Source: Oscillospiraceae bacterium
GTDB taxonomy: Bacteria; Bacillota; Clostridia; Oscillospirales; Oscillospiraceae
DNA: 57,785 bases
NCBI GenBank assembly: GCA_017538965.1
Contig: JAFYHU010000011.1
Span: 1-57,785, forward strand
Direction: 5' to 3'
Shown: piece by piece, positions 24,665 to 57,785 of the stretch
Layout: the number at the start of each line of letters is the position of its first letter
Numbering within the stretch: the stretch's first letter is position 1
Notes under the pieces: generated by a model
Databases searched by the model: none
The model's input: only the letters and a program-made list of their open reading frames with translations
What the model was told of the DNA's origin: nothing
Program-made: the position numbers and the translations under genes

Positions 24665-24697
24665 CGCAGCCCCGGATCTCCGGGGCTGCGTTTTTTT
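24665..24697 (+). terminator. Terminator of the structured RNA
   Basis: A perfect 11-bp stem CGCAGCCCCGG / CCGGGGCTGCG, loop ATCT, seven T. Since the DUF1292 stop is 200 bp upstream, this terminator marks the 3' end of the RNA. Confidence 0.94.
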
Positions 24698-25100
24698 ACA
24701 TGAACTTGTCGATCGCGTCGTTGAGCGCCCGGAGCTGTTCTTCCGAATTGCCGCCCTCTTCATAGATGCAGTGTTCCAGATGGTCCTTCAGGATTACCTT
24801 GGCCGTGCTGCTGAGCGCGCTGCGCACGGCGGCCAGCTGGATCAGGACCTCGGTGCAGTCCCGCCCGTTTTCCACCATGCTCTTGACGGATTCCAGATGT
24901 CCGATCGCTCTGGCAAGGCGGTTGATCACGGCCTTTGTCTGCGTATGCGAATGTCCGTGCGGATGGCTGTGGCCGGCAGGAATCACATCGGTTTCGCCGT
25001 GATGATGACAGTGGATGCTGCCGTCCGAATGCCGGTGGTATCCCGGCGGCAGCGGCTCCTGATCTTCGATATTGGCCATGTATTCGTTCTCTTCCATCAT
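24696..25100 (-). CDS. CsoR/RcnR-family metal-sensing repressor, His-rich
   Basis: A 134-residue DUF156-family regulator. The N-terminal 55 residues are rich in His (HRHSDGSIHCHHHG, HSHPHGHSH), a likely metal-binding tail. The four-helix core (INRLARAIGHLESVKSMVENG) has the Cys-His-Cys set of copper-sensing CsoR: DC, then H and C in KDHLEHC. Family members release DNA on binding Cu(I), Ni/Co, sulfide or formaldehyde. No copper or nickel gene is adjacent, so its target is elsewhere. C/G-tract palindromes typical of this family's operators occur at 29.8 and 36.6 kb. It is divergent from the GH25 gene, with overlapping promoters. Confidence 0.88.
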   Translation of the reverse strand: MMEENEYMANIEDQEPLPPGYHRHSDGSIHCHHHGETDVIPAGHSHPHGHSHTQTKAVINRLARAIGHLESVKSMVENGRDCTEVLIQLAAVRSALSSTAKVILKDHLEHCIYEEGGNSEEQLRALNDAIDKFM

Positions 25101-29705: not shown

Positions 29706-29802
29706 TCCGGTGCTGTGCCTGTGTGGTTTTCGGCTCGGCCATCGTGTTCGGCCGGGAGAGGATATGCAAGACCCGATTTTATAAGAAAATACCGAAAGAA
29801 AT

Positions 29803-29846
29803 ATCCCCCCCGGGGGCTTCCGCGGGCATGGGCGCAGAGATATAAT
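29803..29846 (+). promoter_or_regulatory. C/G-tract palindrome promoter of the ABC-MATE operon
   Basis: TATCCCCCCCGGGGG (29802-29816) abuts a weak -35, TTCCGC (29818-29823), then 17 bp and TATAAT (29841-29846). C-run/G-run palindromes flanked by TA are typical operators of CsoR/RcnR-family repressors. The same arrangement recurs at 36582-36625. The solute-binding gene starts about 100 bp further on, after a leader without a clear fold. Confidence 0.6.
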
Positions 29847-29952
29847 ACAGCATGGCATCCCTGTCGATCAAAAACGGTTTTCCCGCTATGCGGCGCTCCG
29901 GCTGCTGCGTCCGCAAAGCGAGGCTGCAAAAGGAAAGAAAGGAAAAACGAAG

Positions 29953-31533
29953 ATGAAAAGCAGAAAACTCTTTGCCCTCCTGCTGGCGCTGTGCATGATT
30001 GCCGCGCTGGCAGCCTGCGGCCAGAAAGCAGAACCGGCTCCCGCCGCGGCGCCTGAGGGCAGCACCGGCACGCAGAGCACCGGTACCGAAAGCGAACCGC
30101 CGGCCGAGCCCAGGTATCTGAAGATGGCCGTGAACTTCGCCTATCCCAGTCTGGATGCCCATAAGGACTACTACGGCTGGTACACCCAGATCTACGGCGT
30201 GACCGAGACCCTCTTCCGGATCGACGCCGACATGTCCGTCAAGCCCCTGCTGGCGAAGAGCTCCGATGTGAGCGAAGACGGCCTGACCTGGACCTTCGAG
30301 CTCGCGGATGCGTACTTCTCCAACGGCAATCCTGTCACCGCCGACATGGTGGCGCGCAACTTCCGGCGTCTGGTCGAGGTAAACGAGCGCTACGACGACT
30401 GGGCTGCCTTCACCTTTGAGGCGAAGGATGAGAAGACCCTGACCATCACGACTCCGGACGTCTTCCCCACCATGCTCGTTGCGCTGACGGACCCCGAGTT
30501 CGCGATCATGGATCTGGACGCCACTGCGGACTTTGACAACGCCCCCATCGCTACCGGCCCCTTTGTGATCAAGTCCTTCAAGCCGGAGGGCGACGTGGAA
30601 GTCGTCCGCAGCGACAGCTACTGGAATGGCGACGTCAGACTTGACGGCGCGACCCTTTTCTACATGCCGGACGCCGAGTCCAAGCTTCTGGCTATGCAGG
30701 CAGGGGAGATCGACTGCTATACCAGCGTGGACGCGGCCGCCAAGGAGATCTATGAGGCCGATCCTTCCAGCTACAATCTCACGGTCATCCCCGGTACGCG
30801 TATGCAGTTCTATGTGCTCAACAAGACCCGTCTGAGCGACAACGTGTGCGCAGCCGTCAACCTGACCGTGGACTGCGAGGCCATCGCCGCCTATCTTAAA
30901 GGCACGACCTCTGCGGCTGTCGGTCCCTTCGTCGCCTCCGCGCCGTACGGTCAGGTGACCAAGCCCGCTCCCGATCCCGCCGCGGCCAGGGCGCTGCTGG
31001 AAGCGGACGGCTATGTGCTCAACGCAGACGGTTATTATGAGAAGGACGGCAAGGTGCTCGAGATCACCATCTGCCATTACAAGTCCCGTCAGCTGCCCGA
31101 CCTCGCTGTTCTGATGCAGGAGCAGCTCAAGAATGTCGGCATCAAGGCGACGCTGGTTGTTCAGGAGGATCCGGATGCCGGCTATGTGGCCACCGGCGAC
31201 TACGATATCGCGCTCTACTGCATGATCGCCGATACGGGCGGCGATCCCTACTACTGCGTTGACGCTCTGTATCGCGAGAGCGGCAAATGGGCCAAGGCCG
31301 GCTTCCCGACCGATGAGACCGAGGCGCTGATCAACAAGCTTCAGTTTGAGACTGATATCGATCAGCGCGCTGCGCTGGCCAACCAGATCGTACAGATGAG
31401 CATTGACGAAAACGCCTTCGGCTATGTCGGCCTGTTCAACAAGGTCTCCGTTGCCCGGCCCGGCGTGACCGGCTTCTCCGAAAACATTCCCTTCGACTTC
31501 TACGGTCTTACAGCCGACACAGATATCGCTTAA
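29953..31533 (+). CDS. ABC importer solute-binding lipoprotein, family 5
   Basis: A 526-residue SBP_bac_5 protein, the oligopeptide/dipeptide/nickel type. The signal peptide with lipobox ALAAC anchors it outside the membrane, then an Ala/Pro/Ser/Thr-rich tether is present to about residue 55. The core carries TETLFRIDADMSVKPLLAKSSDVSEDGLTWTFELA, VARNFRRL and ATGPFVIKSF. Members of this family bind peptides, nickel chelates, opines or sugars, and the ligand is not readable here. It is the first gene of a five-gene importer. The ribosome site AAAGG is modest. A gap of 77 bp precedes the permease. Confidence 0.93.
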   Translation: MKSRKLFALLLALCMIAALAACGQKAEPAPAAAPEGSTGTQSTGTESEPPAEPRYLKMAVNFAYPSLDAHKDYYGWYTQIYGVTETLFRIDADMSVKPLLAKSSDVSEDGLTWTFELADAYFSNGNPVTADMVARNFRRLVEVNERYDDWAAFTFEAKDEKTLTITTPDVFPTMLVALTDPEFAIMDLDATADFDNAPIATGPFVIKSFKPEGDVEVVRSDSYWNGDVRLDGATLFYMPDAESKLLAMQAGEIDCYTSVDAAAKEIYEADPSSYNLTVIPGTRMQFYVLNKTRLSDNVCAAVNLTVDCEAIAAYLKGTTSAAVGPFVASAPYGQVTKPAPDPAAARALLEADGYVLNADGYYEKDGKVLEITICHYKSRQLPDLAVLMQEQLKNVGIKATLVVQEDPDAGYVATGDYDIALYCMIADTGGDPYYCVDALYRESGKWAKAGFPTDETEALINKLQFETDIDQRAALANQIVQMSIDENAFGYVGLFNKVSVARPGVTGFSENIPFDFYGLTADTDIA

Positions 31534-31610
31534 ATATACAGAATTCGACGGGGCCGGTGTCATACGCCGGCCCCATCCCTTGAACCCGTAAGAAAGGAGG
31601 AAACTGACCC

Positions 31611-32549
31611 ATGATCAAATATATAGGCAGACGCCTGATTCACCTCGTCGGGATTATGATCGCCGTCAGTTTCCTGACGTTTTTGCTGATGTACCTCTCT
31701 CCCGGTGACGCCGCCATGAAAAAGCTCAACGCGCAGGGCGTCTCCGTTTCCGAAGAGATCATCGAAAAAACAAGAGAGAGCATGGGGCTCAACCGTCCCT
31801 TCCTGGTGCAGTACGGCGACTGGGCGCTCCGCGCGCTGCAGGGAGATCTGGGCAATTCCTACAAAGACGGCTTCCCCGTTGCGGACAAGCTTGCCAGGGG
31901 CCTGCGCTATACGACGATCCTCGCCTTCACCAGTCTGGCTCTGGCCCTTGCGGTTGCGCTGCCGCTGAGCATCCTGACAGCCCTGAAAAAGGACAGTCTG
32001 CTCGACAACATCACCCGATTGTTCAGTTTCATAGGCAACTCGCTGCCAAACTTTCTGATTTCCGTGCTGCTGATGTATTTTCTGTGCGTCAAAGCGCATC
32101 TGCTGCCGCTGACGGCGAACGAAAGCGTAAAGGGGCTTGTGATGCCCTGCCTGGCGCTGTCGATCCCGATCTGCGGCCGTTTCATCCGGCAGTTCCGTGC
32201 GGAGATTCTCGAACAGCTCAGCCGGCCCTACGTCTCCGGCGCCATGCTGCGGGGCGTGAAGCAGCGCTATATCCTCAAAAACGTTCTGCATAATTCCGCG
32301 ATATCCATCCTGACGATCGTCGGTCTGTCGATCGGAACGCTGATGGGCGGCAGCGTCGTTGTTGAGACGATCTTCCGCTGGCCGGGACTGGGCAAGCTCG
32401 CGATGGACGCGATCACCAACCGGGATTATCCGGTGATTCAGGGCTTCGTTCTCTTCACCTCCACCGTCTATGTCTTGATCAATCTTCTCATCGACATCGC
32501 CTACAGCTGGATTGATCCGCGCCTGCGGGAGACGGGAGGCGGCTCATGA
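31611..32549 (+). CDS. ABC importer permease, DppB/NikB type
   Basis: A 312-residue inner-membrane permease with about six hydrophobic segments. It begins MIKYIGRRLIHLVGIMIAVSFLTF, the usual DppB N-terminus, and contains the cytoplasmic EAA-like loop (RPYVSGAMLRGVKQRYILKNVL) and GGSVVVETIFRWPGLGKL, both diagnostic of this subunit. It partners the next permease. The start follows AAGGAGG. It overlaps the next gene by 4 bp (ATGA). The TTRDYPVIQG-like end (ITNRDYPVIQGF) also matches DppB/NikB. Confidence 0.95.
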   Translation: MIKYIGRRLIHLVGIMIAVSFLTFLLMYLSPGDAAMKKLNAQGVSVSEEIIEKTRESMGLNRPFLVQYGDWALRALQGDLGNSYKDGFPVADKLARGLRYTTILAFTSLALALAVALPLSILTALKKDSLLDNITRLFSFIGNSLPNFLISVLLMYFLCVKAHLLPLTANESVKGLVMPCLALSIPICGRFIRQFRAEILEQLSRPYVSGAMLRGVKQRYILKNVLHNSAISILTIVGLSIGTLMGGSVVVETIFRWPGLGKLAMDAITNRDYPVIQGFVLFTSTVYVLINLLIDIAYSWIDPRLRETGGGS

Positions 32550-33382
32550 AGAAACGGGTGAAAACACGGGAAGCTTTGCGCCGGCGCCTGATCTTTTTTC
32601 TGGTTCTGGCCGGCATTCTGGTGCTCGTCAGTCTGATTGCGCCGCTTTTATGCCCGAACGATCCGAACGCAACCTCGGCCGCCGACATAAACCGCCCGCC
32701 CTGCGCCGAGTTTCCCTTCGGCACGGACCGTTACGGGCGCTGCGTCTGCTCGCGCGTGCTGATGGGCGCTCGGACCTCGATCTTCTCCGCGGTGGCGCTG
32801 GTCGGCATCACCTTTATCGCAGGCACGACGCTGGGCCTGTTGGCCGGCTGGTACGGCGGCATCGTCGATACGCTCATCATGCGCCTGGCGGACGTCATGC
32901 TGGCTTTCCCGCAGATGGTGCTTGCGATCGCGGTGGCCGGCATCCTCGGCGGCGGCATGGGCAACGCGATGCTCGCCATGGGCATAACCGGCTGGACGCT
33001 CTATGCCAGGCTTGCCCGCGCGCAGACGCTGGCGCTCAAGGAAGAACCCTATGTCCACGCTGCGCGCCTGAGCGGCTGCAGCGGCGGGACGATCATGGTC
33101 AGAACGCTGCTGCCGAATCTCCTGGGGCCGATGCTTGTCACCGCCGCCACGCAGATCGGCGTTATGATGATCGGCATTGCCGGGCTCTCCTTTCTCGGCA
33201 TCGGCGTTTCCGAGCCGCAGGCGGAATGGGGAAGCATGATCAACGGCTCCCGTGCTTATCTGCAGCTGGCGCCCTGGGCGGTGCTGGCGCCGGCAATCGC
33301 CACGATCATCACCGTGATGATTTTCAACTATCTGGGCGACTGCGTGCGGGATGTTCTTGACGTTGGGGAGGTGGAGAGATGA
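32546..33382 (+). CDS. ABC importer permease, DppC/NikC type
   Basis: A 278-residue permease. Hallmarks are the N-terminal helix, FPFGTDRYGRCVCSRVLMGART, the EAA loop (EEPYVHAARLSGCSGGTIMVRTLLPNL) and GLSFLGIGVSEPQAEWGSMI. These are the sequence features of DppC/OppC/NikC. It forms the channel with the preceding gene, 4-bp overlap on each side. The cysteines in GRCVC are slightly unusual. Substrate as for the SBP. Confidence 0.95.
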   Translation: MKKRVKTREALRRRLIFFLVLAGILVLVSLIAPLLCPNDPNATSAADINRPPCAEFPFGTDRYGRCVCSRVLMGARTSIFSAVALVGITFIAGTTLGLLAGWYGGIVDTLIMRLADVMLAFPQMVLAIAVAGILGGGMGNAMLAMGITGWTLYARLARAQTLALKEEPYVHAARLSGCSGGTIMVRTLLPNLLGPMLVTAATQIGVMMIGIAGLSFLGIGVSEPQAEWGSMINGSRAYLQLAPWAVLAPAIATIITVMIFNYLGDCVRDVLDVGEVER

Positions 33383-34329
33383 ACGACGGCATCCTGTCCG
33401 TTTCCCGTCTGTCCGTCGGCTACACCGATCGCCCCGCCGCGACGGACATAAGCTTCACGCTGCAGAAGGGCGAGATTCTCTGTCTCGTCGGCGAGAGCGG
33501 CTGCGGCAAGAGCACGGTGCTCAAGGCCCTGATGGCCGCACCGGAAATCCAGCTGCTCGGCGGCTCGCTCTCCCTCGGCGACACAGTCCTCTCCGAGCTG
33601 CCCCTCAAGGAGCGCCGCAGGATCTGCTGTGAGAGGATGGGCATCGTCTTCCAGTCGCCGGAGGCGACCTTCAACCCGATCCGGAGCTATCGCAGGCAGT
33701 TCATCGAAACGCTCAAAAGCCACGGCCGTTATGACCGTGCTTCTTTTGAAAACCAGGTAGCCGAGGCCTTCGCCAAGGTTGAACTGAACGACTGGAAGCG
33801 CGTGCTGAACGAGTGCCCTTATGCGCTCAGCGGCGGTATGAATCAGCGCGTCGCGCTGGCTCTGGCCCTGCTTCTGAACCAGGAGATCCTGCTGTGCGAC
33901 GAGCCGACCAGCGCGCTGGACGCGACGATCCAGCTGCAGGTCGCGCAGGAACTGAAAAAACTGCGCGACGAGCGAGGCGTCACCCAGATCATCGTAACCC
34001 ACAACCTGGCGCTGGCCCGCTTCCTGGCAGACCGTATCGGCGTCATGTATGCCGGGCGTCTGGTGGAACTGGGTCGGGCCGGGGACGTGCTGCGCGAACC
34101 CGGGCATCCCTATACAGAAAGCCTGATTGAGGCTGTTCCCAGGCTGGACGGAGAAATGCCGTTCGGTTTGCCGGGCAGTCCTCCGATGACGGGCCCCTCC
34201 GAGATCGGCTGCGAATTCCGTGAGCGCTGCCCCGTCGCCACGGACGGCTGCGCGGGCAGATGCTGCACCCTGCGGGATCTGGGCGGAGAACACTTCGCTT
34301 CCTGCTGCGGAAAGGAGGCTGCCGGATGA
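33379..34329 (+). CDS. ABC importer ATPase, DppD/NikD type
   Basis: A 316-residue ATPase. Walker A GESGCGKST, Q-loop FQSPEATFNP, signature LSGGMNQRVA, Walker B LLCDEPTSALDA and H-switch VTHNLA are all present. The C-terminal extension holds the family's Cys-rich oligopeptide-ATPase motif (CEFRERCPVATDGCAGRCC), here with extra cysteines compared with the usual four. It energises import. The stop overlaps the start of the second ATPase (ATGA). Confidence 0.95.
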   Translation: MNDGILSVSRLSVGYTDRPAATDISFTLQKGEILCLVGESGCGKSTVLKALMAAPEIQLLGGSLSLGDTVLSELPLKERRRICCERMGIVFQSPEATFNPIRSYRRQFIETLKSHGRYDRASFENQVAEAFAKVELNDWKRVLNECPYALSGGMNQRVALALALLLNQEILLCDEPTSALDATIQLQVAQELKKLRDERGVTQIIVTHNLALARFLADRIGVMYAGRLVELGRAGDVLREPGHPYTESLIEAVPRLDGEMPFGLPGSPPMTGPSEIGCEFRERCPVATDGCAGRCCTLRDLGGEHFASCCGKEAAG

Positions 34330-35069
34330 TCGTTTTGGAAGGAAGAGACCTGACAAAGGTTTACGGCAGGCATAAGACCGCGTTCCACGCGCTGCGCGGT
34401 GTGAGCTTCCGGCTCAAAGACGGCGAGATCCTGGGCCTGGCCGGCGAAAGCGGCAGCGGCAAGAGCACGATCCTGAAGCTGATCTCCGGCCTGGAGCCGC
34501 CCACTTCAGGCAGCATCCTGCTTCACGGCAGAGAGCTGAGTCCGCGCCGCACAAAGGAAGAGTACCGCACGATGCAGATGATCTTCCAGAGCGCGACCGC
34601 CTCCTTTCATCCGCGCCGTACGATCGCGGATTCCATCACCGAAAGCGTACGCACCCTCCGGGGGAAAAATGCCTCGGTGGATTTCGCGGCTCTCGCCGAC
34701 CTGGTGGGACTGCCGGCCGTCCTGATGGAGCGCTACCCCCGACAGCTCAGCGGCGGCCAGTGCCAGCGCATGGCCATCGCCCGCGCGATGGCGGCGGAGC
34801 CGGAGATCCTGCTGTGCGATGAGATTACGAGCGCGCTGGACGTGTCTTCTCAGGCGCAGATCCTGCGTCTGCTGGCGGAGATCTGCCGCAAAAAACATAC
34901 CTCCGCGATCTTTGTCTCTCACGATCTGGCGGTGATCCGCTGCCTGTGCGACCGCGTCACGATTCTGCGCGGCGGCGCGCTGATCGAGGAGGGAGAGGTC
35001 GCGCAGGTCATCGGCGCACCGAAGGAAGCCTATACGCGCAAGCTCGTGGATTCCGTTCTGGAAATCTGA
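34326..35069 (+). CDS. ABC importer ATPase, OppF/NikE type
   Basis: A 247-residue ATPase: Walker A AGESGSGKST, FQSATASFHPRRTI, signature LSGGQCQRMAIARA, Walker B LLCDEITSALD, H-switch VSHDLA. It is shorter than DppF because the C-terminal Cys-rich extension is missing, as in NikE. The correct start is the ATG overlapping the previous stop; the reading frame extends upstream into the previous gene without family sequence. It completes a heterodimeric ATPase pair with the upstream gene. It is followed after 25 bp by the MATE gene. Confidence 0.93.
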   Translation: MIVLEGRDLTKVYGRHKTAFHALRGVSFRLKDGEILGLAGESGSGKSTILKLISGLEPPTSGSILLHGRELSPRRTKEEYRTMQMIFQSATASFHPRRTIADSITESVRTLRGKNASVDFAALADLVGLPAVLMERYPRQLSGGQCQRMAIARAMAAEPEILLCDEITSALDVSSQAQILRLLAEICRKKHTSAIFVSHDLAVIRCLCDRVTILRGGALIEEGEVAQVIGAPKEAYTRKLVDSVLEI

Positions 35070-35094
35070 TGAAAAGGAGAGCAGACGATCGTGT

Positions 35095-36447
35095 ATGAGC
35101 GCGCAGGCAAAAGGTGATCTGACCGTCGGGCCGATCGGAAAAAAACTGCTGCTCTTTGCAGTTCCGCTTTTGCTGGGCAGTCTGGTGCAGCAGCTCTATA
35201 ACACGGTCGATCTGATCTTTGTCGGAAACTATATCGGGAAATCTGCGTCGGCCGCTATCGGGGCAAGTACCCTTTTGATCACCTGTCTGGTTGGTTTTTT
35301 CGGCGGGATGTCCGTCGGTTCGGGCGTGGTGATCGCCCAGCTTTACGGAGCAAAGGACACACGGGGGCTGAACAGGGCCGTGCACAACACGGCCACACTG
35401 TGTCTCGCGGGCGGGATGCTGATGATGGCGCTCGGCTACCTCCTCGCGCCGGGCTACCTCCGGCTCATCCGCACGCCGGAATCGATCCGCAGCAGCGCGG
35501 TGAGCTACCTGCGCATCTACTTTTTCTCGTTTCTGTCCATCATTACGTACAATCTCGGCTCCGGCGTGATTCGCGCTCTGGGCGACAGCAAGACCCCTCT
35601 CTATGCCCAGCTCGCAGGAGGACTTGTCAACGTAGGCATGGATTATCTGTTCGTTCGCGTGCTCGAAAACGGCGTTGCGGGCGTCGCCTGGGCTTCGCTG
35701 ATCTCCCAGAGCCTGGCAGCACTGATTGTTCTGCAAAAGCTGACAAAACTGGACGAGGCCTACGCACTGCGTCCGCGCCGGATCTCCTTCGACAGCGCAA
35801 TCCTGAAAAAGGTGCTGCGGATTGGTGTTCCGGCCGGCGCTCAGGCCTTGGTGATCACGCTCTCGAATGTGATGGCACAATATCACATCAATTCCCTCGG
35901 CGAGGATGCGATCGCAGCCTTCACCGCCTACTTCAAGGTAGAGCTGATCGTCTATCTGCCGATCGTCGCCCTGGGGCAGGCCATGATGACCTTCGCAGGA
36001 CAGAATTACGGCGCAGGACAGCTCGAGCGCGTCCGCAGGGGGACGCTGCAGTGCACGCTGATCTCCATGGCGCTGGCGGCTGCCACCTCGGTGCTTGCCC
36101 TGGCTTTCGGCGGCACTCTGTTTCGCGTTTTCAGCCAGGAGAGCTCTGTGATCGAACTGGGACAGCGGATCATCGGCGTTACCTTCCCGTTCTATTTCAT
36201 TTACTCTGTCCTGCAGACCCTCGGGGACAGCCTGCGCGGCCTTGGAAAGGCCCGCGGTCCCATGCTCATCATTCTGGTCAATCTATGTCTCATCCGGACA
36301 GCTCTGCTGTTTTTGATTGTCCCGCGCGTAAACGAGATCCGCGGCGTAGCGGTATGCTACCCCATTACCTGGGCGCTGACCGCACTCTGTATGCTGGTCT
36401 ACTATATTCAATGCATCAGGAAGGAAAAAACGATCGGGAGCCTGTAA
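35095..36447 (+). CDS. MATE-family efflux transporter
   Basis: A 450-residue membrane transporter with about 12 hydrophobic segments. The N-terminus LTVGPIGKKLLLFAVPLLLGSLVQQLYNTVDLIFVGNYIG and GALGDSKTP-type loop (IRALGDSKTPLYAQ) match the MATE/DinF-NorM-like group. Members export cations, drugs or small metabolites using Na+ or H+. It follows the importer by 25 bp and precedes the terminator, so import and export genes share a transcript. The start has GGAG 15 bp upstream, a loose spacing, so translation may depend on coupling. The export substrate is unknown. Confidence 0.9.
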   Translation: MSAQAKGDLTVGPIGKKLLLFAVPLLLGSLVQQLYNTVDLIFVGNYIGKSASAAIGASTLLITCLVGFFGGMSVGSGVVIAQLYGAKDTRGLNRAVHNTATLCLAGGMLMMALGYLLAPGYLRLIRTPESIRSSAVSYLRIYFFSFLSIITYNLGSGVIRALGDSKTPLYAQLAGGLVNVGMDYLFVRVLENGVAGVAWASLISQSLAALIVLQKLTKLDEAYALRPRRISFDSAILKKVLRIGVPAGAQALVITLSNVMAQYHINSLGEDAIAAFTAYFKVELIVYLPIVALGQAMMTFAGQNYGAGQLERVRRGTLQCTLISMALAAATSVLALAFGGTLFRVFSQESSVIELGQRIIGVTFPFYFIYSVLQTLGDSLRGLGKARGPMLIILVNLCLIRTALLFLIVPRVNEIRGVAVCYPITWALTALCMLVYYIQCIRKEKTIGSL

Positions 36448-36482
36448 GAAACAGGGCTCCCGATCATTCTTCTTTGCTTTTC
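36432..36482 (+). terminator. Terminator of the ABC-MATE operon
   Basis: GATCGGGAGCCTGT pairs with ACAGGGCTCCCGATC (one bulged G), the stem running across the MATE stop codon. T-rich ATTCTTCTTTGCTTTT follows. Confidence 0.75.
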
Positions 36483-36534
36483 ACCGGCTCGATGTGCCCG
36501 ATCGCACGCACCATTCGGAGGATTTGCTGAAAGA

Positions 36535-36550
36535 ATCCCTCCCGGGGGAT
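36535..36550. promoter_or_regulatory. Possible accessory C/G-tract site
   Basis: ATCCCTCCCGGGGGAT, outer arms ATCCC/GGGAT, lies about 35 bp before the palindrome of the second C/G-tract promoter. It could be a second operator half or chance. Confidence 0.3.
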
Positions 36551-36581
36551 CGGGCAGCCGTCTGCTTCTCCTGAAAATATT

Positions 36582-36625
36582 ATCCCCCCGGGGGGCTTCC
36601 GCAGCGGGAAAAGTTCTGGTATCCT
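36582..36625 (+). promoter_or_regulatory. Second C/G-tract palindrome promoter
   Basis: TATCCCCCCGGGGGG (perfect C6G6 palindrome at 36584-36595), TTCCGC (36597-36602), 17 bp, TATCCT (36620-36625). It has the same order and spacing as the promoter at 29803. No gene follows on this strand; the predicted transcript enters the fold at 36647-36757. Confidence 0.5.
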
Positions 36626-36631
36626 TACAGC

Positions 36632-36757
36632 AGATCAGATGCTTGAGCGATTGTCTGGATTCCCCTCAATCCGTGTGTCTTTTTCACCTCTCTGACACAA
36701 AGGCAATCGCGGATCTCTCTTCCTGAGACTCTCCGTGCCGGTCACACGGAGGGTCTC
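36632..36757 (+). other. Foldable stretch downstream of the orphan promoter
   Basis: GCGATTG (36647-36653) pairs with CAATCGC (36704-36710), enclosing GGATT/AATCC (36657-36672) and GTGTC/GACAC (36675-36698). A second stem GAGACTCTCCGTG / CACGGAGGGTCTC follows (36725-36757, one G-U). There is a frame of 18 codons at 36639-36695 (starting MLERLSG) without a good ribosome site. It may be a small RNA or leader; no terminator U-tract is visible. Confidence 0.4.
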
Positions 36758-36788
36758 ATGCTATGGTAAGGAAAACCACGGTGTCCGA

Positions 36789-37091
36789 TCAGGACACAGA
36801 CTGTTCCGCGCGGCGGTCCAGCGCGGTGTTGCGGAAATAGAGGACGATATCGATGAGCACCATGATGATGTCCGCAAGATAGAACCACACCGACCAGGCC
36901 AGGGTCCCGGTCCGGGAATATTGAATCATCTTTCCCAGCAGACCGACCAGATACCCGAACACCACGATGAATTCAAAGATGACGCTTTTGCCCTTTGCGG
37001 TGCGCGAGCGCCAGGACTTCAGAATGTTGAACGGCCACGAACAGCCGAAAGCAATCAGCATCCCGATTTCGCATAGCTGTACTACATCCAT
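36789..37091 (-). CDS. Small PQ-loop/SemiSWEET-like membrane protein
   Basis: A 100-residue protein with three hydrophobic segments (LIAFGCSWPFNIL, FIVVFGYLVGLLGKMI, VWFYLADIIMVLIDIVLYF). The first helix ends in WPFNILKSWRSRTAKGKS, close to the PQ-loop motif but with Phe in place of Gln. Single PQ-loop units of about 100 residues dimerise in SemiSWEET sugar transporters; resemblance here is limited. The ATG at 37091 is 6 bp after AAGGAG; upstream in-frame codons lack support. It is followed by no clear terminator. Function not assigned. Confidence 0.6.
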   Translation of the reverse strand: MDVVQLCEIGMLIAFGCSWPFNILKSWRSRTAKGKSVIFEFIVVFGYLVGLLGKMIQYSRTGTLAWSVWFYLADIIMVLIDIVLYFRNTALDRRAEQSVS

Positions 37092-37195
37092 ATTTTTCTC
37101 CTTCTGTCTTTCCGCCGCTTCCCGGAATCTTCGTCCATGATACCAGATTCTCCCCTCCGGCGCAAGACGGGAAGCTTCTCTGTTCGAAACGACAC

Positions 37196-37223
37196 AATGG
37201 CATGGTCCGGAGACCATGCCATT
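37196..37223. other. Perfect 12-bp inverted repeat
   Basis: AATGGCATGGTC / GACCATGCCATT with a 4-nt loop in the 165-bp gap between the PQ-loop-like gene and the 2-oxoacid oxidoreductase gamma gene. No T-run follows on either strand, so it may be an imperfect transcription stop or an operator. Confidence 0.5.
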
Positions 37224-37256: not shown

Positions 37257-37799
37257 TCAGGCTTTGGCCGCTTCCATGCCGGCAACCAGGCAGGCCTTGT
37301 TGCCTTCGAGGAAGCGCATCTTGCGCTCGCCGAGCTCGATCTTGATGGCGTCGACCATCTTGTCAAACTCCACGGCATCGGGATCCGCACCCATCATGGC
37401 GCCGAGGATCGCGACGTTTGCGCCCTTCGGGTTCTTCGCGGCATCGGCGATCGAGGCCGAGTCACAGTAGACGACCTTGACATCGTCGCGCTGCACCTTG
37501 CGGTCGATGATGGAGGAGTTCACCACGATCAGTCCGCCGGGCTTCACGGTGTGCTCGAACTTGTCCAGAGAGGGCAGGTTCATGGCGATCAGGACATCGC
37601 AGTTGTCCACAAGGGGCGAACCGACCGGCTCGTCCGACACGACGACCGAGCAGTTGGCCGTGCCGCCGCGCATCTCGGGACCGTAGGAGGGAAGCCAGGA
37701 AACATGCTTGCCTTCAAGCATGTTGGCCATGGCGAGGAACTTGCCGATGAGCAGCATGCCCTGTCCGCCGAAGCCTGCAAAAACGTACTGTTTCATCAT
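37257..37799 (-). CDS. 2-oxoacid:ferredoxin oxidoreductase, gamma subunit
   Basis: A 180-residue gamma subunit. It begins [23 protein letters not shown] and includes [13 protein letters not shown], the standard motifs of the gamma domain of pyruvate/2-ketoisovalerate/2-ketoglutarate ferredoxin oxidoreductases. The complex oxidises a 2-oxoacid and CoA to acyl-CoA and CO2 with reduction of ferredoxin. It is last in the order ferredoxin-alpha-beta-gamma, 2 bp after beta. Branched-chain (VOR) or 2-oxoglutarate (KOR) specificity is not decidable here. Confidence 0.93.
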
Positions 37800-55612: not shown

Positions 55613-55630
55613 ATGCCCGCAATTGAATGT

Positions 55631-55720
55631 TGGGTGCTGGGTCTTCCCGGCTGAGAGAGGGTAATCGAGCCCTAAACCACGGAACCTGATCCGGATAATG
55701 CCGGCGTAGGAAAGCACGTG
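55631..55720 (+). ncRNA. TPP (thi-box) riboswitch
   Basis: GGGTGCT at the 5' side pairs with AGCAC at the 3' side. The invariant pieces GGCTGAGAGAGGG, CCCTAAACCACGGAACCTGATC and GATAATGCCGGCGTAGGAAAGCA are present in the correct order. It senses thiamine diphosphate. The terminator directly downstream indicates transcriptional control. Confidence 0.96.
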
Positions 55721-55727
55721 TTCATCG

Positions 55728-55761
55728 GCATCAGGTCTTTCGGAGCCTGATGTTTTCTTTT
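55728..55761 (+). terminator. Riboswitch-controlled terminator
   Basis: CATCAGG / CCTGATG stem followed by TTTTCTTTT, 9 nt after the aptamer. TPP binding would favour this terminator and lower thiT expression. Confidence 0.85.
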
Positions 55762-56359: not shown

Positions 56360-57649
56360 TCAGACAAGTTCGCCGACCAGGGTTCCGTCTTCCTCAGCGG
56401 AAAGAATGCGCACCGGGCGCATCTGACCGTGAAGCTCCGCTTCGGGGACGCGCACCAGCAGATAGGTGTCGCTGTGACCGAGTGAACCCTTTCCGTCCCC
56501 GGATTCAAACAGCACCGACAGCGTCTCTCCGATGCCGGCCGCGCGAAAAGCGCGGCCGGTCTCATTGGAGACCGCTTTTGCCTCGTGTGCCCGGCGGTTT
56601 TTGACCGCACTGGTCAGCTGTCCGGGCAGTTTGTCCGCCGGGGTTCCCGGCCGTCGGGAATAGGGGAAGACATGCAGTTCGGAGAAGGCGCACTTTCTCA
56701 GGAAGTCCAGCGTCTGCCGATGGTCCTCTTCCGTTTCCCCCGGAAAGCCCGCGATGAGGTCGCCGGTCAGGGCACAGCCCGGGAAATAGAAACGCAGCAG
56801 TTCGGTCCTCCGGTAAAAGAAGTCCGTGTCATATTTCCGGTTCATCGCTTTCAGCGTCCGGTCACAGCCCGACTGCAGAGACAGGTGGAAATGGCGGCAA
56901 AGCTTTCCGGTTGCAGCCAGCCGCCGGCAGAAGTCTTCCGTGATCACCGTCGGCTCCAGGGAACCGAGACGCAGGCGCATCTCTCCTGCTTCGGCTGCGG
57001 CAGCCTCCACGAGATCCGTCAGCGTCGGTTTTCCTTCCAGATCCAGGCCGTAGGAAGCTACTTCGATTCCTGTCAGAACCAGCTCCAGATATCCTTCCTC
57101 CCGGATTCTTCGGACTTCCGAAACCGCGTCACAGATCGGCATGCTGCGGAGGCTTCCCCGGACGTAGGGGATGATGCAGTAGCTGCAGAAATTCCGGCAG
57201 CCGTCCTGGACCTTCAGCATTGCGCGGGTTCTTCCGGAAACCGCGCCGGCCGGAAGCTGTTCCAAGGTCCGGCGGGAGAACGGCCGGTCGATCCGCGTTT
57301 CGCCTCCGCCCTGCGCGGCAGCGCGTTCCACCGCTTCCACGAAAGCCATGCGATCTCCGGTTCCGAACAGAACTTCTGCGCCGATCTCGGCATTCTCCTC
57401 GGGGCTCAGCTGGGCATAGCAGCCGCAGACGGCAACAACGGCATTCGGATTCTCATCCCGCAGCCGCCGGATGGTCTGGCGGGATTTTCGTCCGCTCTCG
57501 GCCGTGACGGCGCAGGTGTTGACAATGACGGCATCCGCCTGCTCGCCCGGGGCTGCTGCGGTATGTCCGTCCCGGCGCAGTTTTTCTTCCATTGCCTGTG
57601 TCTCAAACTGGTTGACCTTACAGCCCAGAGTGGCTATAATATATTTCAT
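56360..57649 (-). CDS. mtaB: tRNA t6A37 methylthiotransferase MtaB
   Basis: A 429-residue radical-SAM MTTase that converts t6A37 to ms2t6A37 in tRNA. The N-terminal UPF0004 domain begins MKYIIATLGCKVNQFETQAM with its Cys ligands (TCAVT, CGCYAQL). The radical-SAM cluster is CRNFCSYCIIPYVRG. A TRAM domain is at the C-terminus. The LGCKVNQ start marks the MtaB branch and not MiaB or RimO. Convergent to thiT with zero gap. The region just upstream of the start is a group II intron end, so its original promoter may be displaced. Confidence 0.94.
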   Translation of the reverse strand: MKYIIATLGCKVNQFETQAMEEKLRRDGHTAAAPGEQADAVIVNTCAVTAESGRKSRQTIRRLRDENPNAVVAVCGCYAQLSPEENAEIGAEVLFGTGDRMAFVEAVERAAAQGGGETRIDRPFSRRTLEQLPAGAVSGRTRAMLKVQDGCRNFCSYCIIPYVRGSLRSMPICDAVSEVRRIREEGYLELVLTGIEVASYGLDLEGKPTLTDLVEAAAAEAGEMRLRLGSLEPTVITEDFCRRLAATGKLCRHFHLSLQSGCDRTLKAMNRKYDTDFFYRRTELLRFYFPGCALTGDLIAGFPGETEEDHRQTLDFLRKCAFSELHVFPYSRRPGTPADKLPGQLTSAVKNRRAHEAKAVSNETGRAFRAAGIGETLSVLFESGDGKGSLGHSDTYLLVRVPEAELHGQMRPVRILSAEEDGTLVGELV

Positions 57650-57659
57650 GAGTAAATTT

Positions 57660-57785
57660 ATCTCTCCTTTTCATTCATAACAGTTGAAATAAACTCCTCC
57701 AAAGAACCGTACGTGCGGTTTTCCCGCATACGGCTCCCCACATTTACTTCAAACAATTGTCAGTTGTATATCACTTTACCGCACC
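57660..57785 (-). mobile_element. Group II intron, 3' end (domain V), cut by window edge
   Basis: On the minus strand, 57736-57704 reads GAGCCGTATGCGGG then AAAACCGCACGTACGGTTC, a 33-nt hairpin that is a near-exact domain V of bacterial group II introns (AGC-triad start, GAAA-type tip, ACGG...TTC end). About 40 nt more intron-like sequence, including the likely domain VI and 3' splice site, runs to near 57662. The rest of the intron, with any reverse transcriptase gene, lies outside the window to the right. mtaB begins about 12 bp further downstream. Confidence 0.8.

Follow-up and report, generated by a model that had tools for sequence, protein, structure and literature searches.

A putative nickel-acquisition regulon and a predicted structured small RNA with one operator-promoter design in an Oscillospiraceae genome

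Results

Two promoters of one design flank an importer-exporter operon

The contig JAFYHU010000011.1 of an Oscillospiraceae bacterium (assembly GCA_017538965.1), analysed at its full length of 57,785 nucleotides (nt) and called the window below, carries two plus-strand promoters in which a C-run/G-run palindrome adjoins a poor -35 element, and which stand on either side of an operon for an ATP-binding cassette (ABC) importer and a MATE-family exporter. At site 1, TATCCCCCCCGGGGG (29802-29816) is followed by C, the -35-like TTCCGC (29818-29823), 17 nt and the -10 hexamer TATAAT (29841-29846); operator copy 1 thus spans 29802-29823, with its palindrome at 29805-29816, and transcription would start at about 29853. 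At site 2, TATCCCCCCGGGGGG (36581-36595) is followed by C, TTCCGC (36597-36602), 17 nt and TATCCT (36620-36625), and operator copy 2 spans 36581-36602, with its palindrome at 36584-36595. The operators were assigned by direct reading and from the genome-wide set of sites (for site 2 also the genus set), the -10 hexamers by direct reading and their spacing class. The letters and positions given for both sites in an earlier note on this DNA are exact, letter by letter, and the flanks that it described as shared, GAAA..ATAT/ATTAT upstream and ACAGCA downstream, can be read directly at both.

The operon behind site 1, all of it on the plus strand, begins with a NikA/Opp5A-like substrate-binding protein (29953-31533), for which the best NCBIfam model was that of a nickel substrate-binding protein, NF045468 (E 4.9e-80, below its cut-off). 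It continues with an ABC permease of the NikB/Opp2B type (31611-32549), which passed the cut-off of the 'nickel ABC transporter permease' model NF045470 (353.1 bits, cut-off 350), a second ABC permease that is NikC-type by position (32546-33382; PF00528), and two ABC ATPases that are, again by position, NikD-type (33379-34329; PF00005 and PF08352, oligo_HPY) and NikE-type (34260-35069; PF00005; true start probably at about 34320). The last gene encodes the MATE-family exporter (35095-36447; TIGR00797, 215 bits, above cut-off). It should be noted that names such as NikC, NikD, FecB2 and MT1 are our own labels for homology groups.

The earlier note had placed one site before this operon and the other before a transcript that is not annotated, and the sequence bears out both placements. 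No plus-strand open reading frame (ORF) of at least 60 amino acids (aa) starts between site 2 and position 36735. A 113-aa plus-strand ORF (36735-37076) overlaps a 142-aa minus-strand ORF (36789-37217) for which no Pfam match was found, and the minus-strand ORF at 37257-37799 is a recognised gene with a POR domain. The recognised genes 3' of site 2 lie on the minus strand, and therefore the predicted site 2 transcript heads into convergent genes. Its predicted start coincides with position 36632, at which the conserved 5' end of a structured RNA, AGATCAGATG, lies. Elsewhere in the window, the matches to a thiamine pyrophosphate (TPP) riboswitch and a group II intron (55622-55729 and 57648-57738) are ordinary.

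Without mismatches, TATCCCCCC occurs in the window only at sites 1 and 2; with one mismatch allowed it occurs at 6 places, against 11.3 expected, and thus the short half-site by itself is no proof. With up to three mismatches, ATTATCCCCCCGGGGGGCT occurs at nine places in the source genome (3.39 Mb in 91 contigs, of which the window is C90), namely two in the window, four on contig C68, two on C78 and one on C76, and the reversed pattern at none. The resemblance of the two promoters, held by the earlier note to exceed chance, therefore does so by far (nine against zero), with the qualification that they are not a mere pair, but two of nine regulon sites.

A predicted covarying RNA lies behind the second promoter

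The predicted small RNA occupies 36632-36759 on the plus strand (match of model R1 at 36630-36759), its 5' end being the presumed transcript start. Stem P1 (36647-36710; 36647-36655 pairing with 36702-36710) would enclose two hairpins, P2a (36657-36672), with the C/U-rich loop CCCCTC, and P2b (36674-36699), the loop of which includes CACCTCTC, and would be followed by the 3' hairpin P3 (36725-36757; 36725-36737 pairing with 36745-36757), a possible weak terminator with no U-run here. The predicted fold of 36625-36780 beats 200 of 200 shuffles (z -3.88). The stretch is homologous to one behind the C78 promoter that precedes HypB; within the genus, BLAST recovered it from 20 of 61 genomes, and a model built from 20 rows gave 62 matches in 45 of 102.

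Two alignments were used. In A1, which holds 20 of 22 RNA rows (L062 and L069, each without one hairpin, were omitted; L numbers denote the loci compared), the 5' GATCAGATG is invariant, and it forms the conserved unpaired parts together with the CCCTC loop, ACCTCT, CTCTC and GGT. A2 holds 51 of the 62 model matches and excludes near-duplicates (L118, L129, L152), partial matches and others such as L162; 93.3% of its cells are standard pairs and 26 of 32 pairs changed on both sides. By helix, such changes affect 8 of 9 pairs in P1 (helices 1-2), 4 of 4 in P2a (helix 3), 6 of 6 in P2b (helix 4) and 8 of 13 in P3 (helix 5). Compensatory cells in A2 numbered 297, compared with 91 (standard deviation 7) after shuffling and 19-69 with the partner strand slid; because A2 was fitted to the structure, these counts lean towards it. 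An operator (up to three mismatches) lies 46-49 nt before the RNA match in 45 of the 51 copies, at the same offset in 39, and six have none.

Beyond the genus the RNA is scarce: no match was found in 294 other genomes of the order under stricter filters, and a search of the family gave three weak matches in other genera, of which L293 is plausible and two are probably terminator hairpins. Rfam 15, which includes the NiCo riboswitch, contains nothing that reaches its gathering score in the RNA, and at an open threshold only microRNA-family models appeared, far below their cut-offs (E 0.24-3.4 for the window, 0.55 for L019). A small protein starting at the ATG in the conserved 5' end was considered and rejected, since the frame is not kept: the distance from the ATG to ACCTCT is spread over the three frames as 7/19/13 (39 rows), and the ORFs range from 2 to at least 130 aa (45 rows, 400 nt read). 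The RNA behind site 2 is, as far as these comparisons go, non-coding, and the earlier note had missed that its second transcript would be a conserved structured RNA.

Five copies (L155, L157, L158, L159, L163) have no operator-promoter and do have U-run terminators. They lie 10-17 nt after the stop codon of a short conserved ORF that ends in a hydrophobic stretch (..WLPAAAVIAL..), and in their vicinity ArsR-AraC-like genes (L155, L157, L159, L163) and, more distantly, a P-type ATPase (L155, L157, L158) are found; perhaps they form a second branch, derived from 3' untranslated regions (UTRs) and under another metal regulator. In a further set of compact RNAs (L160, L165, L166) the hairpin domain is missing; they retain the 5' end and the final hairpin as well as C/U-rich stretches, and sit upstream of deacylase/methyltransferase genes or beside FecC2.

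The operator marks a regulon of nickel or nickel/cobalt genes

The other sites of the source genome lie on three contigs. On C68 (L018), one arm of a divergent pair leads to an AstE/AspA-type deacylase (PF24827) and a methyltransferase, and the other to an operon of the NikBCDE type, together with a methyltransferase gene and one for a NikA-like protein; further along follow a methyltransferase, a TetR gene, a methyltransferase, a FecB-type periplasmic binding protein with its transporter, a methyltransferase and FmdE. The reading frame at L018:11337-11837, at first taken by eye for a 'flavodoxin', has no Pfam match and is left unlabelled. C78 (L019) carries HypB, which scores above its cut-off, DUF364 (a 'putative heavy-metal chelation' domain), a FecCD-type permease, an ATPase, a binding protein and a methyltransferase. 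On C76 (L020), the neighbours of a methyltransferase gene encode an ArsR-AraC regulator, a heavy-metal P-type ATPase and, as judged by eye, a second DUF364 protein.

The motif is widespread in the genus. With up to two mismatches it was found in 22 of 24 sampled congeners as well as in the source genome, with a single reversed-control match (G012), and with up to one mismatch in 88 of 102 genomes, the reversed control being zero in every row; thus the motif on which the earlier note had built its argument is not absent from orthologous loci. Beyond the genus the operator is rarely matched: among 390 further genomes of the class, four contain one match each. The four matches span two other families, and TANNNT lies exactly 21 nt downstream in all of them; behind them lie genes for an OppA-like protein (52% identity), for one methyltransferase at 48% identity and another at 47% that begins with a His-rich stretch, and a His-rich ORF of 121 aa. 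The last of these (L298:1055-1420), very rich in His and with no Pfam match, might possibly be a nickel store or chaperone. Two further matches within the same order, found with two mismatches (L021, L045), are unlike this promoter and were set aside, and a search of a plasmid collection gave no match.

A scan of a collection of genome contigs for operator plus -10 returned at least 117 stretches, of which 80 loci were examined. Most of these belong to gut and rumen assemblies of uncultured Oscillospiraceae, 'Ruminococcaceae' and Clostridia, and they include two Selenomonas, one Butyrivibrio isolate and one Blautia-labelled assembly. Behind 80 distinct sites lie CbiM/NikM (27), class I methyltransferases (14), FecBCD-type ABC systems (13), the structured RNA (7), Nik/Opp-type ABC systems (6), a CsoR-family regulator (6), unlabelled genes (5) and a contig end (2). 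Two of the five unlabelled targets were resolved as a MATE transporter from Selenomonas and a CbiA/ParA-type ATPase. The former (Selenomonas sp. AE3005, L249:5639-6973; PF01554) is preceded by the operator, and a MATE gene likewise ends the operon of the window. In Selenomonas ruminis (L199) and Butyrivibrio sp. NC2007 (L242), operators stand before Nik-type or CbiM genes. All five CbiM/NikM proteins checked from other loci of the genus match PF01891, and LarC-type nickel insertion proteins are encoded downstream of the structured RNA in two genomes. In L236 (at about 6288, oriented) one operator-promoter precedes an ORF the start of which resembles that of a Rex-type redox regulator.

The list of target genes points to a regulon for the uptake of nickel or of nickel and cobalt, and nickel is favoured because of HypB, the nickel permease model and the LarC-type proteins. 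A [NiFe]-hydrogenase large-subunit homologue is encoded in 92 of the 102 genomes of the genus, which makes a need for nickel likely, yet NikR (PF08753) was found in none of the 102, many of which are incomplete assemblies (positive controls were found in 5 of 14). It is very improbable that the palindrome-promoters merely represent a mobile element or a repeat that plays no part in regulation. Each genome does hold several nearly identical copies, as would be expected in that case, but what the copies have in common is the operator and its spacing and not the flanks (two RNA-bearing copies share more), and nearly all labelled copies, across families, stand directly before nickel/cobalt or methyltransferase genes.

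Several different small class I methyltransferases (eight groups were labelled), DUF364 proteins, MATE exporters and importers belong to the regulon in L018, L019, L020 and many relatives. It could be that an unrecognised methylated metal-binding compound is made, exported and re-imported.

An InrS-like protein is the candidate regulator

The minus-strand gene at 24696-25100 encodes a CsoR-family protein with a His-rich N-terminus (PF02583, 6.7e-25, above cut-off), which we propose as the regulator of both sites from its domain, its structural relatives and the promoters of its orthologues. Among proteins of known structure the nickel sensor InrS is closest (5fmn, E 1.6e-23), just ahead of 6ahx (1.7e-23), and the candidate's Cys-His-Cys ligand positions and N-terminal His align with those of 5fmn, residues for which ligand roles in InrS are described in the sections of PMC7055735 drawn on here. 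The NCBIfam models for RcnR, FrmR and RicR gave only 33.9 to 44.2 bits, compared with cut-offs of 133-175. Orthologues (better than E 1e-30) are present in 88 of the 102 genomes, and an operator lies 63-166 bp before the start of the matched orthologue in at least 21 (88 regulator rows were compared, with motif rows for 51 regulator-bearing genomes). It is chiefly this placement that leads us to propose the 24696-25100 protein as the reader of the operator. Nickel would be its signal.

Another reader is quite unlikely, for example the paralogue CsoR2 beside the C78 copy of the RNA, the TetR protein of C68 or an unseen factor. CsoR2 is encoded divergently beside the RNA in L019, L128-L131, L138, L151 and L152, and in the source genome the operator is missing from the promoter of the gene at 24696-25100. 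Moreover, presence of the motif and of the orthologue are not associated: of the 88 genomes that have a strong orthologue (E below 1e-30), 78 carry the motif, as do 10 of the 14 that lack one. Most of the 14 assemblies without orthologue are incomplete, which blunts this comparison; nevertheless, because of it the probability assigned to our preferred explanation was lowered from 0.68 to 0.66 and that of another regulator slightly raised. Against another reader stand the distribution of the main regulator and the operators before its orthologues, and, among the matches listed, CsoR2-like ones occur in nine genomes; CsoR2 itself, beside the C78 copy of the RNA (L019:1116-1409), has lost the His and the second Cys ligand positions.

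Promoter geometry fits activation at least as well as repression

The geometry was evaluated with 80 distinct sites that had been gathered without any requirement for a -10 element, from the window, L018-L020, L075-L083 and L116-L175. Duplicates and sites not ending in CTT were removed, and L084 was omitted, since apart from one real site it consists of a coding repeat array that contains palindromes; one chance palindrome (L146, oriented 7100) is included. TANNNT lies 20-22 nt after CTT at all 80 sites and exactly 21 nt at 71, so that the operator is centred at about -42.5 if the first base of the -10 element is taken as -12. The -35 element is poor, TTCCGC being the commonest version (26 of 80), followed by TTGTGG (11 of 80). 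Many sites also carry the TG of an extended -10 element (T in 44 and G in 53 of 71 at its two positions). A fixed operator spacing beside a poor -35 element is the arrangement of class II activators. Thus the operator position is no less compatible with class II activation than with repression, and the combination of fixed geometry, poor -35, frequent extended -10 and targets that are mostly importers leads us to favour, at modest odds, activation by the metal-free protein. In line with this, apo-InrS is reported as an activator at the nik operon of Synechocystis in the account given in PMC7055735.

It is somewhat unlikely that the same InrS-like protein acts on the same regulon as a classical repressor that blocks the -35 element, either with nickel as co-repressor or with efflux and detoxification genes being released by nickel. 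The operator does adjoin the -35 element, genes for a P-type ATPase and MATE exporters lie in or near the regulon, and CsoR-family nickel sensors are described as metal-released repressors in the cited part of PMC7055735. However, the labelled targets are mostly importers or methyltransferases, and for importers the usual CsoR logic, in which metal releases the repressor, would run backwards. In addition, repression does not require a fixed distance to the -10 element, which could however also persist through common descent, and a poor -35 with a frequent extended -10 TG is what activator-dependent promoters have.

The proposal of the earlier note that one metal- or thiol-responsive repressor reads both sites is therefore retained in part. 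A single regulator, probably metal-responsive, is supported by the CsoR-family domain, the closeness to InrS and the operators before orthologues in at least 21 genomes. The word 'repressor' is not supported by the geometry or by the mostly importing targets, and for a thiol response there is no support among the targets; as these are nickel/cobalt genes, a thiol or persulfide signal was set aside.

The RNA probably acts in trans

In the window and at L117, L118, L137, L139, L145 and L166, the first recognised gene after the RNA is oriented towards it (in L137, L139 and L145 from several hundred bases away or farther), and the downstream FecC2 gene has its own operator-promoter in L083, L130, L133, L146, L151 and L152. 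In all, the next gene is convergent or separately promoted at 13 loci; the other loci are ambiguous. The co-directional followers elsewhere range from HypB, MATE, DUF364 and LarC-type genes to unrelated ones. As far as recognised genes go, the RNA is thus not always upstream of a co-directional gene, as a riboswitch or leader would be, and a riboswitch for the downstream gene was rejected as a general explanation. It is a separate observation that in many FecC2 loci (e.g. L019:3370-3480) the apparent start codon and the predicted transcript start nearly coincide, as in a leaderless mRNA.

That the RNA is a cis-acting leader of the operon that follows, riboswitch-like or sequestering a Shine-Dalgarno (SD) motif, is unlikely. 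In several genomes it does lie about 150-400 nt before HypB, MATE, DUF364, LarC or FecB-like genes on the same strand, and the CACCTC loop could pair with SD motifs such as GAGGTGT, which is found in CbiM/NikM and HypB. These points have to be weighed against the convergent genes and the separate FecC2 promoters, against co-directional followers that are otherwise mutually unrelated (MoeA, YitT, a Na/Ca exchanger and a carbohydrate-kinase type) and against the 3' UTR-like place of the five operator-less paralogues. The position of the next genes (convergent, separately promoted or unrelated) and the 3' UTR-like paralogues lead us to favour a trans-acting small RNA, and the RNA of site 2 probably acts in this way.

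The C/U-rich loops suggest pairing with SD regions. Two candidate pairings were not accepted as evidence: one between the 5' AGATCAGAT and the first part of the FecC2 mRNA, ATCTGATCT, is seen in close relatives, fades elsewhere and may reflect the codons of a conserved peptide, and the complementarity between the SD motif of CbiM/NikM and the CACCTC loop also exists in genomes without a match to the RNA model (e.g. G022, G017).

Discussion

We consider it probable (about 0.66) that both promoters belong to a nickel, possibly nickel/cobalt, acquisition regulon that is read by an InrS-like protein acting as an apo-activator and that includes a trans-acting small RNA. The operator, A[TG]CCCCCCGGGGGG[AC]T, centred at about -42.5, would be bound by the 24696-25100 protein. 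When nickel is scarce, the metal-free protein, positioned beside a poor -35 element, would help RNA polymerase to start (class II activation), and nickel would remove the protein from the operator; an alternative for this step would be repression by the nickel-bound form. Site 1 would yield the Nik-type importer together with the MATE exporter, and site 2 an independent, structured small RNA with a length of about 128 nt, the C/U-rich loops of which would probably pair with SD regions of other mRNAs, thereby adjusting or sparing the use of nickel. What the sequences show directly is the regulon with its nickel/cobalt-related genes and fixed geometry, the failure to find NikR, the operators before many regulator orthologues and the conserved, covarying, non-coding RNA behind its operator-promoter; the choice of regulator, nickel as signal, activation, production of the RNA and its action on targets are inferred from these.

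Several observations weigh against this explanation or parts of it. CbiM by itself cannot separate nickel from cobalt. Efflux could be indicated by the genes for a P-type ATPase and MATE proteins that belong to the regulon or adjoin it, and CsoR-family metal sensors are mostly described as efflux repressors in the passages of PMC7055735 on which we rely. Operator matches are rare outside the genus, the regulator gene of the source genome has no operator in its promoter, and the presence of motif and orthologue is not associated. Concerning the RNA, the frequent position before a co-directional metal gene makes a leader role possible in places, and the 3' U-run, clear in the five operator-less paralogues, is weak in the main group (T makes up 36% in the tails of all 51). 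Furthermore, when the start of the hydrogenase large-subunit gene was considered as a target, no difference was seen between RNA-bearing and other genomes (26 of 30 loci entered; one was skipped as too short, and the start of L317 is probably mis-called).

If the regulator indeed activates, the logic of the CsoR family would widen from repression of efflux to activation of import throughout a genus. Irrespective of the mode of action, the regulon supplies an operator, a likely regulator, a set of targets that includes many unnamed methyltransferases and a small-RNA family without Rfam match. A bolder version is somewhat less likely than not: NikR-less gut Clostridia might possess a nickel counterpart of RyhB, in which an InrS-type class II activator operates at C6G6 operators of fixed geometry under low nickel and switches on the entire nickel-acquisition regulon along with a small-RNA family, the anti-SD loops of which hold back nickel-consuming proteins.

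A limited literature search revealed nothing on this regulon or RNA. The closest known systems are of related kinds. InrS of Synechocystis PCC 6803 shares the CsoR family, the Cys-His-Cys positions with the N-terminal His, the lack of NikR and a link to nickel import, as far as described in the excerpt of PMC7055735 used. It differs in that its known role is mainly the control of the NrsD exporter, whereas here the operator is fixed at about -42.5 and an import regulon with an RNA is found. The RcnR operator, TACT-G6-N-AGTA, likewise has a core run of six G/C according to the same source (PMC7055735), but the operator described here is a symmetric C6G6 with other flanks and is fixed relative to the -10 element.

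Small RNAs tied to nickel regulators are on record in NikS of H. pylori (NikR), which is reported to control virulence factors, and s-SodF of S. coelicolor (Nur), as outlined in the portion of PMC9294342 available to us; both regulators are of a different family from the CsoR-type protein here. s-SodF is a 3' UTR product (PMC9294342, same portion), whereas the main group of RNAs described here has its own operator-promoter and five paralogues are 3' UTR-like. RyhB-type metal-sparing RNAs are also small RNAs under a metalloregulator (PMC9294342, likewise in part), with iron in place of nickel, and sparing in the present case is only hypothetical. LhrC of Listeria, as presented in the text consulted from PMC4132741, has three redundant CU-rich sites in loops and a single-stranded stretch, with pairing predicted to block the SD motif; the C/U-rich loops are alike, pairing is only suggested here, and no relationship is claimed. 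What is described here is thus a variant on known kinds, on the one hand an import regulon with an InrS-like candidate regulator and on the other a small-RNA family that is linked to a metal and has no Rfam match.

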